This document shows, piece after piece, positions 12,710-20,242 of a DNA stretch of 64,000 nt. Position numbers and translations under genes: made by a program. The DNA lies in NCBI RefSeq assembly GCF_006152065.1, contig NZ_VDFW01000006.1:124001-188000 (forward strand), read 5' to 3'. This stretch comes from Amycolatopsis alkalitolerans (GTDB lineage Bacteria > Actinomycetota > Actinomycetes > Mycobacteriales > Pseudonocardiaceae). Position 1 is the stretch's first letter. Each line of letters starts with the position of its first letter. The notes beneath the pieces were generated by a model. That model made no database searches. It was not told the DNA's origin and was given only the letters and a program-made list of their open reading frames with translations.

Positions 12710-12799
12710 TTACCAAGCCGACCGGCAGCCACGGCGATCGGCGAAACGTAGGTCGGCTACCGGTAGGTCAGTTCGGCCTACTTCTGGTCGGCTTGGTAA
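12710..12799. repeat. Long-range perfect 14-bp inverted repeat at the acyltransferase 3' end
   Basis: TTACCAAGCCGACC (12710-12723) and its exact reverse complement (12786-12799) flank ~62 bp. The second arm is the 3' coding end of the acyltransferase gene. Between the arms are further GTAGG/CCTAC-type partial repeats. It could fold at the 3' end of the acyltransferase mRNA as a terminator or stability element, or be a remnant of a mobile sequence; neither is proven. Confidence 0.55.
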
Positions 12800-14106
12800 G
12801 CATGGTGCCGAGGCGCGGCATGACGTCCCTGCGCCACCCGGCGGACCGGCCGCATGATCGCCGTTTCCTCGGTTGCGTTGGGCCGTGGCTGGGGTTTCGG
12901 CGGCGCGGCACGCGGGGGCCTCGGCCGCGGCCGGGGCGGGACAGGCGGCAGTTCGATGGTGATCTCCGCGCTGACCGGGATCGGCTCCGGCTTCGGCTGC
13001 GAGCCGTGCGACAGGCGGCGTGCCAGTGTGTGGCTCGGCCGCTCGACGTAGCGGTAGCTCAGTTCGACCACGCCGAATACCGCGGCGATCGCGAGCACCA
13101 GCGCGATCGGGAGCGGGATCGCGGGGCGCATCAGGTCCAGCAGGACGAACGCGACCAGCGAATGCAGCAGGTAGATCGAGTAGCTCCGCTCCGACAGCGC
13201 CGTCCAGCCCCGGCGCTGCCTCAGCTTCGGCTCGGCGAACATGCCCAGCAGGAAGCACAGCACCGCGAAGGCCAGCGACAGGTTGTACGAACTGTCGATG
13301 CGGCCCACGTTGATGACGTCGCCGAGCACGTAGAGCGCCCACGCGGTACCGATGAAGATCCCGCCGGCCCACAGCGGGATCTTCTTGGCGGTGGCGGCCC
13401 AGATGATCTGCCCGATCAGCGGGATCGCCAGGTAGGACACGTTCACCGCGAACAGGAAATACGATGCGGAGAACTGCCGCGCGCTCATCAGCACCACGAA
13501 GACGAAGGTCAGTTCGACCGCGATGGTGAGCCACACCGACCGGCGCAGCAGCGGCAGCACGGCCAGCAGCACCAGGTAGAACAGCACTTCGACGATCATC
13601 GACCAGGCGACCGGGATCAGCACCACCTGCGGCACGATCAGGTAGTTCACCAGCAGGCTGTTGGTCAGCACCGTCAGCGGGTTCAGCGTCTGCGGCTGGC
13701 CCGTCGACGGAGGGTGCAGGTGCACGAGAATCACGACCGTGGTCAGCAGGACCACGAACACGATCGGCACGTACACCCGGATCAGCCGGTTGGCGGAGAA
13801 CCGCCGGATGCCCTGCCGCAGCGCGATCGGGGTCACTACGAAGCCGCTGACCAGGAAGAAGAACGGCACCGCGACCTCGCCGATGCCCTGCTTGGCCATA
13901 TGCATCGGGTTGCTGGTCAGCGCCTCGAGAAAGCTGATGTACGGCGCGTGCTCGCCCTTGGTCTCGACCCACTCGTGCGCGATATGGCTGTAGAACACGA
14001 GCAGCGCGCCCACGGCGCGGCCGATGTCGATGAAGACGATCCGGGTCTTCTTCGGTGCCTGCTTCTCCGCCGGTTTCGAGGGCGTGGACTCGGCCAGTGC
14101 CCTCAC
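12778..14106 (-). CDS. Membrane acyltransferase, OafA/YrhL-like (Acyl_transf_3)
   Basis: A 442-aa integral membrane O-acyltransferase with ~10 hydrophobic segments. The N-terminal block reads FIDIGRAVGALLVFYSHIAHEW, where the family's catalytic histidine lies in the SHI segment, and the FFFLVSGFVV motif follows. Such enzymes add acetyl or other acyl groups to cell-surface sugars, antibiotics or lipids. A proline-, arginine- and glutamate-rich cytosolic tail of ~75 residues (PPVPPRPRPRPPRAAPP) is unusual. GTG start. It lies next to the giant glycosyltransferase on the same strand with a ~75-bp gap, suggesting one surface-glycan locus. Confidence 0.9.
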   Translation of the reverse strand: MRALAESTPSKPAEKQAPKKTRIVFIDIGRAVGALLVFYSHIAHEWVETKGEHAPYISFLEALTSNPMHMAKQGIGEVAVPFFFLVSGFVVTPIALRQGIRRFSANRLIRVYVPIVFVVLLTTVVILVHLHPPSTGQPQTLNPLTVLTNSLLVNYLIVPQVVLIPVAWSMIVEVLFYLVLLAVLPLLRRSVWLTIAVELTFVFVVLMSARQFSASYFLFAVNVSYLAIPLIGQIIWAATAKKIPLWAGGIFIGTAWALYVLGDVINVGRIDSSYNLSLAFAVLCFLLGMFAEPKLRQRRGWTALSERSYSIYLLHSLVAFVLLDLMRPAIPLPIALVLAIAAVFGVVELSYRYVERPSHTLARRLSHGSQPKPEPIPVSAEITIELPPVPPRPRPRPPRAAPPKPQPRPNATEETAIMRPVRRVAQGRHAAPRHHAYQADQK

Positions 14107-14182: not shown

Positions 14183-17100
14183 TCAGGCGTTGGGTGATTC
14201 CCGTGGATCGAGCCAGAGTGTGAGGAATTCCTTCTCGTTCGCCCGTGCCGCCGCGATCAGTTCGGGGTCGCCGCGAAGGCGCTCGACCGGCCCTTTCTCA
14301 CCCACCTCGATCAGCCGGTAGCCCAGCTCGCGGTACCCGGCGAGCACCGCGGCGGGATCGTCGCCGAGCTCCTCGATGGCACTGGGGCAGAATTCGCACA
14401 CGACGTGCGGCCGGTCCCGGCGCAGGACGCCCGCGAGCCCGGCGAGCGCACGGTGATCACGGCCCTGCAGGTCCACCTTGACCAGCGTGACCGGCTGAGC
14501 GCCGACCTCGGGCAGGTCGTCGAGCCGCAGCGCGCGGACCTCGATGCCCGGCCCTTCGGCGCTGACCCGGTTGTCCCCGCTGTTGCCCGGCGAAGCCTGC
14601 GCCAGCCGGACCGTCGTCTCGGTGTCCCACGCCGCGGATTCCACGACGGTGACCAGTTCCGCGGTCTCGGCCGGGAGGTTGACCCGCAGGTTCCGCCGCA
14701 GGTACTCCGCGTTGACCGGATGCGCCTCGACGGCGATCGCACCGGTCACTTCGGGACACGAGCGCAGTAGGCGCAGCGTGTGGTAGCCGACGTGCGCGCC
14801 GATGTCGAGGATCGCGCCGGACCGGCCGGCGGCCAGGCGCGCCATCAGCTCGGCCTCGCTGTCCTCCCAGGACCGGTTGAACACGATCCACGGGAGCATG
14901 ACCTCGTCGACCGGCATCAGCAGCGCGCCGACGTCACACGGCACGACGTCCGCGTCGCGCGGCACCGGGGCGTGCGCCATGCGGGCGGCGTCGCGGATCG
15001 CGACGAGGTCGATCGATACTCGCTGCAGCGCTTCTTCGTCGTTGTCGAGGCGCTTGTCGCGGGCCTCGAACATATGGTGCGTCGCGGCTGTCGCTGCCTG
15101 AAGCTCGGCGGTGAACCCGTCCGCCAGCTTCGCCACGTCGGCTTCCATGTTGTGCAGCGCCAGATCGGTTTCCGGCAGCTGGGCCCGCAGCGCGGCCAGC
15201 GAGGACTCGACCGCATTCAGCCGCCTGTCCACCACGCCCTTCACCGACTCGATCCGCTCGCTGACCCGGCGGCCGGTCTCGGCCGCGCGCCGCGCGTCGT
15301 CGAGCCGCGCCTCGATCGACTCCAGCCGGGCGAGCAGCCGCTGCGCGGTGTCCTCGGTGCCGCTGAGCAGGGCGCCCATCACCCGCCGCTGGTGCACGTC
15401 GTAATGGTCGATCGCGCGGAGTACGGCCTTGCGCATCGCCGGCGCCAGCGGGACGCGGGAGGCCGCGTCGGGTTCGGGCCGCCAGCGCAGCGCTTCGCTC
15501 GCCTGCCGGACCGGAGTAAGCGGATGTTCCGGCGCCGGGGCGACGTGGCGGGCCTGCCAGAGCCGGTACGCCGTCTCGAGTTCCGCGCGGATCCACTCGG
15601 CGGCCGTGTCCATCGACCGGGTCCGCAGGATGTGCTCGCGCGCCTGCCTGCCGCGCCGGCCCGCTTCGGCCGGATCGTCGGCGACCTGCCGCATGGCCGC
15701 CGCGGCGGCGTCGAGATCCGGTTCCGCCCAGCTCGACTCCGCCTCGTACGGCCCGCAGCCCTTGCCGACCTTGACCAGCTCGTACGGGATCGGCCAGCCG
15801 GTGTGCTCGTCGAGGAACTCCGTGGTGCTCGAATAATCCGTCGAGATGACCGGCATCGCGCGAGCCATCGCCTCGGCGACGGTGAGCCCGAAGCCCTCGC
15901 TGCGGTGCAGCGAAACGTAGCAGGAGCTGTCCTCGTACAGTTGGTGCAGCTCGTCGAGGCTCAGATAGTGCTCGATCAGCTCGATCCGGCCGTCCCCGGC
16001 GACCGCGGCGCGCAGGCGCTCGGCCTCGAGCGGATGCGACCTGCCGTTGATCGTCTTGATGGTCAGGCGCACGTCTTCCCGGCCGGGGAAGGCCTTCTGG
16101 AACGCCGCGACCGCGCCCCACGGGTTCTTCCGCTGCGCGACGCTGTTGAAGTCGAACGCGAAGAGGAACCGCACCGGATCACCCGGTGTACGCTCCGGCC
16201 GCGCGGGCTCACCCGGATCGCGGACCGGCACCGGGATCGTCTTGACCGGGATCGGGGCGTGTTTCGCGAACGCCGTCCGGCAGAAGTCGCTGACCGTCCA
16301 CACCTCGTCGAGCAGCCCGAAGGCCTCGTGCATCCAGCCGGGAAAGTCCTCCAGCTCCCAGGCCCACAGCCCGATCCGGTACCGGTCGTGCCCGACCTCC
16401 CGGTGGGCGCCCAACAGCGGGCGGGTCATGTCCGCGTTGACGGCGAGCACGCTGATCGGGAACCGCGGTTCGCCCAGCGTCGCCGGACGCTCGACGCCGG
16501 TGCGGTTGAACACCGAACGCTCTTCGAGCACCGAGGCCATCGGGACACCGGCCGACTCGATCGCGTCGTGCACGATCCGGCCCATCTCGCCGACCCCGAG
16601 CTCGGCGGTCAGGTAGCCGAGCAGGTTGACGCCGAACTCGTCGCCGGGCGGGCGCGGCACGGGCGGGTGTTCCGGCACGGCCCAGCCGGCGAGCTCGCCC
16701 TCGCTGATCCCGGAGGTCAGGCACCAGGCGCGGAAGGCCTCCGCGTCGCCGCCCGTCGGGTCGGGAAAGGCGGTGCGCAGATCGGCACGCGCCGACCAGA
16801 CCGCGAGCGCCATCCGGTTGAGCCCGGCGGCCGCCTGCGCCTCGTTGCCCGGCTCCGCGAGCCACTCCCGCAGCGCCTCACCGCCGTCCGTGCCGTACGC
16901 GTGCGGCGGCAGGCTCTTCTTCTTGCGTTCCGCCTTGATCCACGCCTCGCGGAACGCGCGGCGCGCGAGCCGGGGCAGCGGCAAACCGTCACCGAAGGCG
17001 AGGAACCCGTACGGCACGGCTTCGAGCGTCTCGGCGTACCCGGCGGCACGCAGGGCGGCGCCGTACTCGTCGCACAGCTCGCGCAGGTCAGGGTTCTCCG

Positions 17101-17896
17101 ACAGCATGACCCGCGGTTTGCGGATGCAGTACATGGTCAGCAGCCACGGCTGCTCCGGCCGGTAGCCGCTGAAGTGGAAGAACCGGAGGCCGGCGCCGCC
17201 GGCGGTGAGCCGACCGTCGTCCGCACGCCGCAGGGGCCGCTCGTGCAGGTTCCAGTAGGCGACGTTGAACCCCGGATCACGGAGCACGTGATGACCGAAC
17301 AGCGCGGGCACGTTGTCCACCCACCGCTGGTCGGTGAACAGTTGCCGCTCCGGTGCGACGATCGCGTCGTGGCGGAGGCGTTCGGCCCAGAAGTCGAGGA
17401 ACTCGCCGGAGCCGGGGCCGACCCCGATGAAGCCGAGGTTGAAGATCCCGGAGCCCATGATGCCGGCCTCGTCCGGCTCGCAGCCGTCGCGCGGCAGCGG
17501 CGAAAGCACGTGCGGGGTGAGGACGATGCTGTGCGCCACCGCCAGTTCGGCGACCTCGGGCATCGGGGCGAACACCTGGATGTCGGGGTCGAGGTAGATC
17601 GCCACGTCGTACTCGCGGCGCAGTTCGCGCAGCAGGTACGGCTTGACCGACGTGGCCAGTTCGGTGACCGAGTAGGCGGTCGCCATCCGGAGGTAGTCGT
17701 CCTCCGCGATGCCGAAGGCCTCCCAGCCCACGACGCGGAATCCCTCCTGCGCCGCCGGTTCGTCATGCGCGTCGATGACGGCGATCACGAAGTCGTTGCC
17801 GGGGTGATGCGCCAGGTACGACCGGGCCAGCACCTTCGCCGCGGGCAGGTAGTTGCGTGCGACGATCGTGCACGCGGTGACTCGCCGGTCAGCCAT
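14183..17896 (-). CDS. Three-domain glycosyltransferase-glycosyltransferase-FkbM methyltransferase fusion
   Basis: A 1237-aa cytosolic protein of three enzyme modules. Residues ~1-280 are a GT-A-like domain with the metal-binding DxD in YLDPDIQVF (D103, D105). Residues ~425-790 are a GT4-type GT-B domain with the retaining-enzyme motif in SEGFGLTVAEAMARAMPV. Residues ~850-980 are rich in heptad-like charged helices, probably a coiled-coil spacer. Residues ~1015-1215 are a SAM-dependent FkbM methyltransferase with ILDIGAHVGYHTL (residue 1029) and IAVEAHPVNAEYL. It likely builds and O-methylates a surface glycan; acceptor and sugars are unknown. Its start overlaps the upstream membrane protein gene by eight bases. 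Confidence 0.9.
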   Translation of the reverse strand: MADRRVTACTIVARNYLPAAKVLARSYLAHHPGNDFVIAVIDAHDEPAAQEGFRVVGWEAFGIAEDDYLRMATAYSVTELATSVKPYLLRELRREYDVAIYLDPDIQVFAPMPEVAELAVAHSIVLTPHVLSPLPRDGCEPDEAGIMGSGIFNLGFIGVGPGSGEFLDFWAERLRHDAIVAPERQLFTDQRWVDNVPALFGHHVLRDPGFNVAYWNLHERPLRRADDGRLTAGGAGLRFFHFSGYRPEQPWLLTMYCIRKPRVMLSENPDLRELCDEYGAALRAAGYAETLEAVPYGFLAFGDGLPLPRLARRAFREAWIKAERKKKSLPPHAYGTDGGEALREWLAEPGNEAQAAAGLNRMALAVWSARADLRTAFPDPTGGDAEAFRAWCLTSGISEGELAGWAVPEHPPVPRPPGDEFGVNLLGYLTAELGVGEMGRIVHDAIESAGVPMASVLEERSVFNRTGVERPATLGEPRFPISVLAVNADMTRPLLGAHREVGHDRYRIGLWAWELEDFPGWMHEAFGLLDEVWTVSDFCRTAFAKHAPIPVKTIPVPVRDPGEPARPERTPGDPVRFLFAFDFNSVAQRKNPWGAVAAFQKAFPGREDVRLTIKTINGRSHPLEAERLRAAVAGDGRIELIEHYLSLDELHQLYEDSSCYVSLHRSEGFGLTVAEAMARAMPVISTDYSSTTEFLDEHTGWPIPYELVKVGKGCGPYEAESSWAEPDLDAAAAAMRQVADDPAEAGRRGRQAREHILRTRSMDTAAEWIRAELETAYRLWQARHVAPAPEHPLTPVRQASEALRWRPEPDAASRVPLAPAMRKAVLRAIDHYDVHQRRVMGALLSGTEDTAQRLLARLESIEARLDDARRAAETGRRVSERIESVKGVVDRRLNAVESSLAALRAQLPETDLALHNMEADVAKLADGFTAELQAATAATHHMFEARDKRLDNDEEALQRVSIDLVAIRDAARMAHAPVPRDADVVPCDVGALLMPVDEVMLPWIVFNRSWEDSEAELMARLAAGRSGAILDIGAHVGYHTLRLLRSCPEVTGAIAVEAHPVNAEYLRRNLRVNLPAETAELVTVVESAAWDTETTVRLAQASPGNSGDNRVSAEGPGIEVRALRLDDLPEVGAQPVTLVKVDLQGRDHRALAGLAGVLRRDRPHVVCEFCPSAIEELGDDPAAVLAGYRELGYRLIEVGEKGPVERLRGDPELIAAARANEKEFLTLWLDPRESPNA

Positions 17897-19091
17897 TGGC
17901 GGGCAGGGCCTTCAGCTGCGAGTTCAGGATCGAGGTGAAATCGGCCTGCGCGGCCTGCGCGTCCTGGTTGTTGACCTCGATGCGGACCACCACGTTGTCG
18001 TGCGCGTAGTGCGCGCGGACCTGGGCCGGGTTGCCGTTCTTGCTGTCGATGGCCGAGGCGTACACGTTGTCGGGCACGTTCGAGTAGCGGGCGGCGCCGT
18101 TGCGGATCTGGATCTGCAGCAGGTCACTGGCCGCCCGGCCGGCGCTCTGCGGATCGCTCACCTGCGTGATGATCATCAGCAGGCGGCTGCCGTCGGCGAG
18201 CTGGCGGGCGACGAACTTCGTGTCCCCGGCACCCGCGGACGTGTAGACCGACGCCTCCGCCGAGGTCAGATAGTGCAGGTTGGGGATCTGCGAGAAGTTC
18301 TTGATCTGGTCGAAGTTCTGGGCCGTGCCCGGCAGGTCGGGGGCCACCGCGAGCGGGTCCGGCGGCGCGGTCGGGGACGGCGGAGGGGCCTGCGAGGTCT
18401 GCGCCTGGCCGCCGTCGGCCGACGTGCTGCTGCTCTTGCCCCACAGGAAGTACGCGCCGACCGCGATCCCGGCCAGCACCACGACGGCCGCGATGATCGC
18501 CCCGATCTTCGCGCCGTTGCCCTTCTTGGGCTTGTTGTCGAAGGACTCCGGGCCCTGCTGGACCCAGCCGGCTTCGCCACCGCCCGGGCTCAGCGGCGGC
18601 AGGTCACCGCCACCCCACGGCGGGCTCTGGTCGGTCTCCGGCGCGTGCCACGGCGCCTGCGGGAAACCGCCGGGCGGCGAGGAAGGAGTGGCCTGCGGGA
18701 AGCCGCCCGCGGGCGAGGCGGGACCGGCCTGCGGGAAGCCACCGGGCGGGGAGTAGGGCACCTGCGGTTGCTGGGGCGGCGCCACGTACTCGGTGCGACC
18801 CGGGTCCGCGGGTTGTTGCGGCTGTTGCTGCTGCCACTGCTGCGACACCGCTTGTGTGCGTTCGGCGCTGTTGTCCTGGGTCGGGGAAGGCGAGGGCGTG
18901 CCGGAAGGCGGGCTGATCGGCGCGATTACCTGGGTCGAGTCCGCGTTGCTCTCCGGCTGGCTTGGCTCCGAGTCGGGCTGCCCGACCGCGGACGACAGCA
19001 CCTGGTCACGTCGTACCCGGTAGTCATCCGCGGAGAGTCGGCCGGACGCAAGCTCCTCGTCCAGCTTGCGCAGCTCCTCCTGCCAAGACAC
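17889..19091 (-). CDS. SHOCT-like-headed single-pass membrane protein
   Basis: A 400-aa protein of unknown function. The first ~32 residues (WQEELRKLDEELASGRLSADDYRVRRD) resemble a SHOCT-type short helical domain. Then comes a ~150-residue Pro/Gln/Gly-rich region with repeated PxGGFPQA units, one transmembrane helix (IGAIIAAVVVLAGIAVGAYFLWG), and a ~165-residue extracytoplasmic domain. The GTG start was set by alignment with the paralogue immediately upstream, which also begins [VM][ST]WQE[ED]LR. Its stop overlaps the giant glycosyltransferase start, so the two are translationally coupled. Confidence 0.87.
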   Translation of the reverse strand: MSWQEELRKLDEELASGRLSADDYRVRRDQVLSSAVGQPDSEPSQPESNADSTQVIAPISPPSGTPSPSPTQDNSAERTQAVSQQWQQQQPQQPADPGRTEYVAPPQQPQVPYSPPGGFPQAGPASPAGGFPQATPSSPPGGFPQAPWHAPETDQSPPWGGGDLPPLSPGGGEAGWVQQGPESFDNKPKKGNGAKIGAIIAAVVVLAGIAVGAYFLWGKSSSTSADGGQAQTSQAPPPSPTAPPDPLAVAPDLPGTAQNFDQIKNFSQIPNLHYLTSAEASVYTSAGAGDTKFVARQLADGSRLLMIITQVSDPQSAGRAASDLLQIQIRNGAARYSNVPDNVYASAIDSKNGNPAQVRAHYAHDNVVVRIEVNNQDAQAAQADFTSILNSQLKALPANG

Positions 19092-19219: not shown

Positions 19220-20242
19220 TCACGTCGCCGGGAAAGCGCCCGTGACCTGCGTCCGGATCTGTTCGAGGCGGGTGCGCAGCTGCGCCGGATCGCCGGTCGG
19301 CGACTGCGAAACGCCCATCCCGACAGCCAGCGTGCTCGAGGGGTACCACAAGGCGCCGACCCGGCCCTGCGCGTTGCTGCCCGTGTACATCAGATCGGCG
19401 CCGGCCGGCCCGAGCGGTGTGGCCACGAAACCGGTGCCGGCAAGGTTCTCGCGCAGCGCGTCGGCGAGTTTGGTGGCTTGGGCGGCCGACGACGCCGGGA
19501 CCACGAGGAGCATCGCGCCGTTCGGGCTGTTCGCCGGATCGGAGGACGCGCGGTAGATGATCTCGCTCGCGCCCGCCGCCCGCATCAGGTCGGCGTCGGC
19601 CTGGGTGACCAGGTGGAGTTCGAGGGCCTTGTCGATGGACAAGGTCGCGTTCTCGGGGTTCGCGGCGCCGGGCAACGTCGGCAGCTTCGCCTCGGCGCGC
19701 TCGATGGCGTCGGACGGGCTCAGCGTCTGCGCCGGGCCGGTGACCGCCGAACCCGGTGCGTCCGGCTCGTTCCGCGAGCTGAAGAACAACGTCGCGCCGA
19801 TGATCATGGCCAGCACCAGTACCACCCCGAGCGCGAGGATCGCCCAGGTCGGCTTGCGGCCGGTACGGCGTACCGGGTGGGTGGGCAACGGCGGGACCTG
19901 CCGCCGGGACCGCGGCGGCGTCAGGTCGGGCAGGGGGCCCAGGGCGCGCGTGACGATCGTCGGTGCTTCGTGGATCGTCGGGTAGCGCATCGACTCGGTG
20001 GCGCGTTCGTCGGCCGGGCTGGGTGCGGTCGTCTGCCGGTCGGTCGCGAGGAGCGCGGCGGAGCGGCTCACCGGCGGTTCGTCCACCGGGACGGGCTCGG
20101 TCGTGGCCGCCACGGGTGACGACGCGAAACCCCCGGAAGCGGCGGCGAGCAGCTCCTCGCGCTGCTTGCGATGCTCGCGCAGGCTGATCTCACCGCCGGC
20201 CAGCTGCACGTCCAGGCGGCGAAGATCTTCCTGCCAGGTCAT
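19220..20242 (-). CDS. SHOCT-like-headed single-pass membrane protein (paralogue)
   Basis: A 340-aa paralogue of the downstream protein with the same layout. It has a SHOCT-like head (TWQEDLRRLDVQLAGGEISLREHRKQREELL), an ~85-residue Pro/Thr/Ala-rich cytosolic region, one transmembrane helix at ~residues 132-153 (ILALGVVLVLAMIIGATLFF) and an extracytoplasmic domain of ~185 residues. The outer domains of the two proteins share little recognisable sequence, while the heads are clearly related. The order suggests a small membrane complex associated with the downstream glycosyltransferase. Function unknown; no catalytic motif seen. Confidence 0.87.
   Translation of the reverse strand: MTWQEDLRRLDVQLAGGEISLREHRKQREELLAAASGGFASSPVAATTEPVPVDEPPVSRSAALLATDRQTTAPSPADERATESMRYPTIHEAPTIVTRALGPLPDLTPPRSRRQVPPLPTHPVRRTGRKPTWAILALGVVLVLAMIIGATLFFSSRNEPDAPGSAVTGPAQTLSPSDAIERAEAKLPTLPGAANPENATLSIDKALELHLVTQADADLMRAAGASEIIYRASSDPANSPNGAMLLVVPASSAAQATKLADALRENLAGTGFVATPLGPAGADLMYTGSNAQGRVGALWYPSSTLAVGMGVSQSPTGDPAQLRTRLEQIRTQVTGAFPAT

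Follow-up and report, generated by a model that had tools for sequence, protein, structure and literature searches.

A protein joining two glycosyltransferase domains, a helical stalk and an FkbM methyltransferase domain in Amycolatopsis alkalitolerans and its relatives

Domain layout of the 1237-residue protein

The window analysed here is a stretch of 64,000 nucleotides from the soil actinomycete Amycolatopsis alkalitolerans (contig NZ_VDFW01000006.1, positions 124,001 to 188,000), and all coordinates below are window positions. On its minus strand, a single unbroken open reading frame with an ATG start (14183..17896) encodes a protein of 1237 amino acids (aa), in which an initial annotation had recognized two glycosyltransferases (GTs) and an FkbM methyltransferase in one chain. 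This composition is borne out by Pfam and AlphaFold2 domains and by the conservation of motif residues in 119 proteins. The latter, referred to as group A (P0001-P0119, P0001 being the window protein), derive from 120 listed matches comprising the window's own protein, 118 full-length homologs and P0120, which lacks FkbM (894 aa) and was excluded. The further homologs (at least 118) are 1171-1308 aa long and align over 96-100% of the query, with identities of 49-87%. The parts of the gene are listed below, where SAM stands for S-adenosylmethionine and group B is a paralogous group described in a later section.

14183..17896, minus strand: GT-A / GT4 / stalk / FkbM gene (open reading frame, Pfam, homologs, AlphaFold2)
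16997..17896, minus strand: GT-A-like domain, residues 1-300, with weak GT8 kinship (AlphaFold2 model and profile matches)
17582..17590, minus strand: DxD motif D103-P-D105 (D103 in 119/119 and D105 in 118/119 of group A)
15557..16639, minus strand: GT4 (GT-B) domain, residues 420-780
15872..15898, minus strand: EX7E motif EGFGLTVAE, residues 667-675 (E667 in 119/119 and E675 in 114/119 of group A)
15386..15406, minus strand: HYDVHQR motif, residues 831-837, at the stalk base (pattern H[YF][DE]xHxR in 118/119 of group A and 118/120 of group B)
14975..15445, minus strand: helical stalk, residues 818-974 (AlphaFold2 helices 818-906 and 908-974)
14186..14974, minus strand: FkbM methyltransferase domain, residues 975-1237 (Pfam and TIGR profiles, structure model)
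14780..14812, minus strand: SAM-binding motif ILDIGAHVGYH, residues 1029-1039 (D1031, G1033, H1035, G1037 and Y1038 in 119/119 of group A)

The motifs singled out by the initial annotation (D103/D105, EGFGLTVAE and ILDIGAHVGYH from residue 1029) are present at the residues it named, in a gene read from the minus strand. D103, the FTD of FTDQRW, R589, K590, K614, E667 and the SAM-motif residues are invariant in all 119 group A proteins. A further alignment (A3) contains one poorly aligned row (L149). Because the motif residues are near-invariant across the group, all three enzyme parts look to be under selection to function.

The C-terminal part matches FkbM (PF05050) over residues 1031-1195 with an E value of 8.4e-15 (55.7 bits against a cut-off of 22.7), as well as TIGR01444 (FkbM; score 69.1 against a cut-off of 37.7), and is predicted to be a SAM-dependent O-methyltransferase, its SAM residues being kept in 119/119 proteins. 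GT4-type Pfam models match within residues 546-766, where a GT-B fold and the EX7E motif are present. The N-terminal part yielded no Pfam match when the whole protein was scanned. Among 27 relatives, Glyco_transf_8 matches 13 at E <= 1 (best 3.6e-5), a profile built from the 27 matches the GT8 structure 3tzt (E 1.4e-4), and the DxD aligns with those of 3tzt and LgtC. The GT8 kinship of the N-terminal domain thus appears weak but specific. GT4 and GT8 are both retaining families, and therefore two linkages of the alpha type would be the simplest assumption.

The structure prediction proposed by the initial annotation gave confident AlphaFold2 models with GT4 and FkbM folds, an N-terminal GT-A-like domain and a helical stalk about 157 residues long, at whose far end from the GT domains the methyltransferase is placed. 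In structure searches with a model of residues 1-800, the matches shown were filled by GT4 proteins and included no GT-A structure, making them uninformative for the N-terminal part. A viral structure search with the GT model also returned GT4-type proteins; among these matches, two uncultured phage proteins in BFVD are named FkbM methyltransferase (A0A6J5SUQ0, 936 aa; A0A6J5M7M7, 787 aa), a hint that phage GT-FkbM fusions exist. Separately, two 398-aa Lichenibacterium proteins (L150:8487-9683 and L151:9992-11188) match the N-terminal GT-A-like domain only, and the former has no Pfam match.

A conserved operon and its distribution

The neighbourhood was compared in 52 loci (the window and 51 named loci), 46 of them full-length and six FkbM-less. 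The search for named loci used exact peptide patterns, and the set is biased to close relatives, several of one genus. Neighbouring genes come from an in-house codon-usage gene caller rather than from annotation, and were grouped in clusters (n0, n1 and so on) by BLAST linkage, only some members being scanned with Pfam. In the window, the neighbours are the following.

17889..19091, minus strand: n0, membrane protein with a SHOCT-like N-terminus, one transmembrane segment (198-216), a C-terminal domain and a GTG start, directly upstream
17889..17896, minus strand: 8-bp stop/start overlap ATGGCTGA of n0 with the 1237-aa gene
19220..20242, minus strand: second n0-type membrane protein with one transmembrane segment (135-153), ending 128 bp before the n0 start
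12778..14106, minus strand: Acyl_transf_3 membrane O-acyltransferase (Pfam E 2.9e-25), starting 76 bp downstream on the same strand

The n0 gene lies directly upstream in 45 of the 46 full-length loci, and the overlap is exactly 8 bp in 35 of these 45 and in all six FkbM-less loci. Of the two upstream membrane proteins that the initial annotation took to be co-translated with the enzyme, only the nearer is compatible with this, while the farther is set apart by its 128-bp gap. In 18/46 full-length loci, a second and smaller copy of n0 comes directly after, and an n0 homolog matches the SHOCT-like DUF1707 below threshold. Downstream, Acyl_transf_3-type genes (n1) occur within five genes in 45/46 full-length loci, as one copy in 28, two in eight and three in nine; one n1 member (c11 type, L040) is sub-threshold for Acyl_transf_3. 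The suggestion that the product is acylated is thereby supported in other genomes as well, by gene neighbourhood only. A gene for an AlgX-like SGNH protein (n11) is found near 14/46 full-length loci and near all six FkbM-less loci, which are devoid of n1, and n13, with no Pfam match, lies within three genes downstream in 16/46 full-length loci. The Pfam name GT4-conflict had raised the idea of a defence system, which was rejected as none of four operon proteins has a PADLOC match.

In the genome surveys, between two and four top candidates were scored for each genome, so that their counts are lower bounds. In the family Pseudonocardiaceae, the full-length version is present in at least 37 of 150 genomes and 21 of 46 genera; 35 of the 37, the own genome included, have a single match at >=49% identity and two have it in two pieces. 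Within the genus, 6/19 genomes including the own carry full-length copies, the other five being 72-87% identical, hence the gene is patchy in its genus. Outside the family, no match listed among 296 genomes of the phylum spans all three parts, with two candidates scored per genome; the longest listed cover residues 5-897 and 7-865, some within longer frames. Two distant actinobacterial GT-A + GT4 matches (L071 and L074) sit in open frames that are 1643 aa and 1759 aa long, and other fusions may therefore exist.

The absence of a match in six congeners of a first sample could have pointed to frames joined by error or to a contaminating contig. A contaminant is excluded by the copies in six of the 19 genus genomes, and merged frames by the homologs and the 45 full-length named loci, so that an artefact has a negligible probability. 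No frame join was seen, full-length homologs are common, and the three parts, which recur in the same order in many genomes as well as in group B, are not always separate.

The same distribution bears on the possibility that the protein tailors a secreted natural product, by glycosylation and O-methylation of an antibiotic. The hosts are antibiotic producers and FkbM was first named in FK506 biosynthesis. However, the spread over at least 21 sampled genera with constant membrane-protein and acyltransferase neighbours fits a shared envelope function better, and no polyketide- or peptide-synthase-sized gene recurs within about eight genes on either side, as judged from the gene listing with no aimed scan. 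A role in natural product biosynthesis is consequently improbable.

Apparently exchanged methyltransferases and an eroded paralog

Versions without FkbM were found at 20 distinct loci (6 + 14 from two locus sets, L172 being a repeat of L137), and another methyltransferase is nearby in 11 of them. In seven (L129, L130, L136, L137, L140, L160 and L164), a class I methyltransferase gene, n22, lies directly downstream, as if the methyltransferase module had been exchanged; two of these n22 members were scanned and match Methyltransf_11/25. At L169 and L170, n22 is the gene directly upstream, and a protein of 1171 aa is encoded downstream, the latter scanned in L169 and found to be a methyltransferase-GT2 fusion, while L165 and L167 have a methyltransferase-GT2 fusion only. 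These fusions (L165:12477-16025, L167:3358-6759 and L169:3030-6545) are 1133-1182 aa long, with the methyltransferase N-terminal and GT2 C-terminal. In comparison, n22 is directly downstream in only 1/46 full-length loci and within six genes in 5/46. Because a different methyltransferase is often near the FkbM-less versions, methylation can be argued to belong to the pathway. At L161-L163, a protein of 365-386 aa lies within two genes; of two scanned, one has a sub-threshold Methyltransf_23 match and the other none. No methyltransferase was seen near L138, L157-L159, L166 and L168, among which only L157 and L166 were scanned, their large neighbour being GT2 only. As a side observation, the tree and the gene order both place L136 with Kibdelosporangium; its record bears the title Rhodococcus rhodnii NRRL B-16535 and is possibly mislabelled.

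A tree of the GT part was built from 30/119 group A proteins, 28/120 group B proteins, 18 FkbM-less proteins, one full-length locus protein and nine others, with an outgroup that is not monophyletic. Group B and group A plus the FkbM-less proteins each have a support of 1.0, and the node joining them as sisters has 0.65. Within group A, the FkbM-less genes fall into two clades, each supported at 1.0, the deeper nesting nodes being supported at 0.81 or less. Since they nest inside the full-length group, loss of FkbM is the simpler assumption, with the fused form probably being the older one and the methyltransferase having probably disappeared on two occasions.

Group B comprises at least 120 proteins (P0121-P0240), mostly of about 1170-1400 aa, with these three parts in unchanged order and 31-38% identity to the GT part of the window protein (35 sampled). 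Its GT residues are eroded. D105 is replaced by S in 66/120 and by W in 25/120, four columns at LFTD are gapped in 120/120, K590 is found in 0/120, K614 is A, G or L in 97/120, and E667 and E675 are kept in 44/120 and 59/120, respectively; since the GT4 region aligns with gaps, single residues are less sure than the overall loss. FkbM D1031, G1033, G1037, Y1038 and E1057 are retained in 119/120, while group A's Q1144, D1147 and E1168 are mostly replaced. Overall, positions invariant in group A are kept in at least 90% of group B for 26/76 in the GT-A part and 26/45 in the FkbM part. Group B has the appearance of a pseudo-glycosyltransferase, possibly one with SAM binding retained.

In its genomic setting, a gene of the glutamine-synthetase cluster (447 or 454 aa; one member scanned) is upstream in 20/20 loci (L051-L070), directly so in 16, and a ribosomal RNA (rRNA) operon lies downstream in 6/6 loci scanned for RNA. 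Group B is present in at least 74 of the 150 family genomes. Among the matches listed, both groups occur together in 12 genomes, so that neither needs the other, and mutual dependence was rejected on the counts of 74, 37 and 12. The own genome's two matches in the group B survey are pieces of the group A gene.

Proposed function and comparison with known multi-enzyme proteins

Taken together, these observations are probably best explained by a cytoplasmic enzyme with three activities, which would build a surface glycan and O-methylate it, acylation following later outside the cell. The GT-A (GT8-like) and GT4 domains would transfer sugars to a glycan linked to a lipid or another carrier, the FkbM domain at the far end of the stalk would O-methylate it, and n0 would hold or regulate the enzyme at the membrane. 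The glycan would then be exported, and the Acyl_transf_3 proteins could acylate that same glycan outside. Several points weigh against this proposal. When the N-terminal part was scanned alone, its Glyco_transf_8 score (14.8 bits) was below the cut-off of 24.3. The recurrent neighbours in the 52 loci include no export gene and no wzm/wzt pair; the own genome has 23 ABC2_membrane matches, none tied to this locus. Lastly, no methyltransferase above cut-off was seen near 9/20 FkbM-less loci, whose neighbours were partly scanned, hence methylation may be dispensable.

In the stalk, none of the 132 positions in residues 843-974 is invariant in group A, the aligned length ranges from 65 to 159 residues, and helical periodicity is above about 95% of shuffles in 102/119 stalks. 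The sequence of the stalk thus drifts, whereas the HYDxHxR motif at its base hardly varies in either group. The coiled-coil-like spacer of the initial annotation corresponds to the two predicted end-to-end helices; in periodicity, the window protein's own stalk (818-974) scores 41.0, below the 95% shuffle level of 51.4.

In a more specific form of the surface-glycan proposal, one chain would act as polymerase, ruler and terminator, the GTs polymerising a repeat, the stalk setting a minimum length and end-methylation stopping growth, as in WbdD or Klebsiella O7 ORF6. In ruler systems, the terminating enzyme is described as positioned across a coiled-coil from the GTs (PMC11231755), and termination at a set length is an attractive guess here because the methyltransferase is likewise predicted at the far end of a long, drifting and mostly periodic stalk. 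On the other hand, the periodicity of the window's own stalk is below the shuffle level, wzm/wzt is missing from the recurrent neighbours, and the own genome has no match to Wzt_C (PF14524), which matches 2/14 control genomes and is the export domain by which the cap is read in several members of the coiled-coil ruler class (WbdD, WbbB, O7 ORF6). This form is accordingly possible but doubtful.

A short methylated oligosaccharide of fixed size, for example on a glycolipid or a protein, with the stalk as spacer or dimeriser, is as likely as termination by a ruler, and just as tentative. The chlorovirus protein A064R, whose two GTs and methyltransferase are in the same order, makes a fixed glycan (PMC7019647), and the lack of polymer export genes among the recurrent neighbours would suit such a product; a stalk of about 157 residues nevertheless exceeds the needs of a spacer.

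The most elaborate version is unlikely as a whole: a single-chain polymerase with built-in ruler and methyl terminator in Gram-positive actinomycetes, which would do without a Wzt that reads the cap, have its translation coupled to that of a membrane protein and leave acylation to a later stage outside the membrane. The sister branch, encoded between glnA and an rRNA operon, might in this version be a SAM-binding regulator. Should the stalk prove to be a ruler, a principle of gram-negative O-antigen synthesis would extend to Gram-positive bacteria. A conserved operon that presumably combines two sugar transfers with methylation and acylation offers defined access to the surface glycans of an antibiotic-producing actinomycete family, within which varied stalk lengths, methyltransferase modules that were lost or exchanged and a branch whose active sites are eroded constitute natural experiments.

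The initial annotation held that GT4, GT-A and FkbM enzymes are usually separate proteins. This is overstated, since in A064R, WsaE and Klebsiella O7 ORF6 two GTs and a methyltransferase are fused. Searches of open-licence papers turned up neither this particular family nor the combination of GT8-like, GT4 and FkbM domains nor the n0/acyltransferase operon.

In A064R of chlorovirus PBCV-1, two GT domains are followed by a C-terminal methyltransferase, each biochemically shown (PMC7019647). The likeness to the 1237-aa protein is one of architecture, and A064R differs in being viral, in its rhamnosyltransferases, in acting on a capsid-protein glycan and in having no n0/acyltransferase operon. 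WsaE of Geobacillus stearothermophilus, which methylates the chain end, is also a trifunctional chain of a methyltransferase and two GT domains (PMC2943079). Here too the likeness is limited to architecture: the methyltransferase of WsaE is N-terminal and its gene belongs to an S-layer glycan cluster with wzm/wzt.

In the Klebsiella pneumoniae O7 ORF6, a coiled-coil separates a methyltransferase-kinase from two GT2 modules (PMC11231755), while the E. coli O9a WbdD consists of a methyltransferase, a kinase and a coiled-coil and recruits the polymerase (PMC3482155). The parting of methyltransferase and GT modules by a coiled-coil in ORF6, and the recruitment of GTs by a coiled-coil protein in WbdD, resemble the arrangement predicted here (PMC11231755, PMC3482155). 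Both differ by an N-terminal methyltransferase with a kinase, by GT2 modules (ORF6) or a separate GT (WbdD) and by gram-negative O-antigens exported by ABC systems, whereas the 1237-aa protein has a C-terminal FkbM, GT8-like and GT4 domains and a genome without Wzt_C. Compared with FkbM methyltransferases as such (PF05050, TIGR01444), its FkbM domain is fused through a stalk to two glycosyltransferases. Single-chain proteins of the GT-GT-methyltransferase kind are thus already known from A064R, WsaE and the Klebsiella O7 ORF6.

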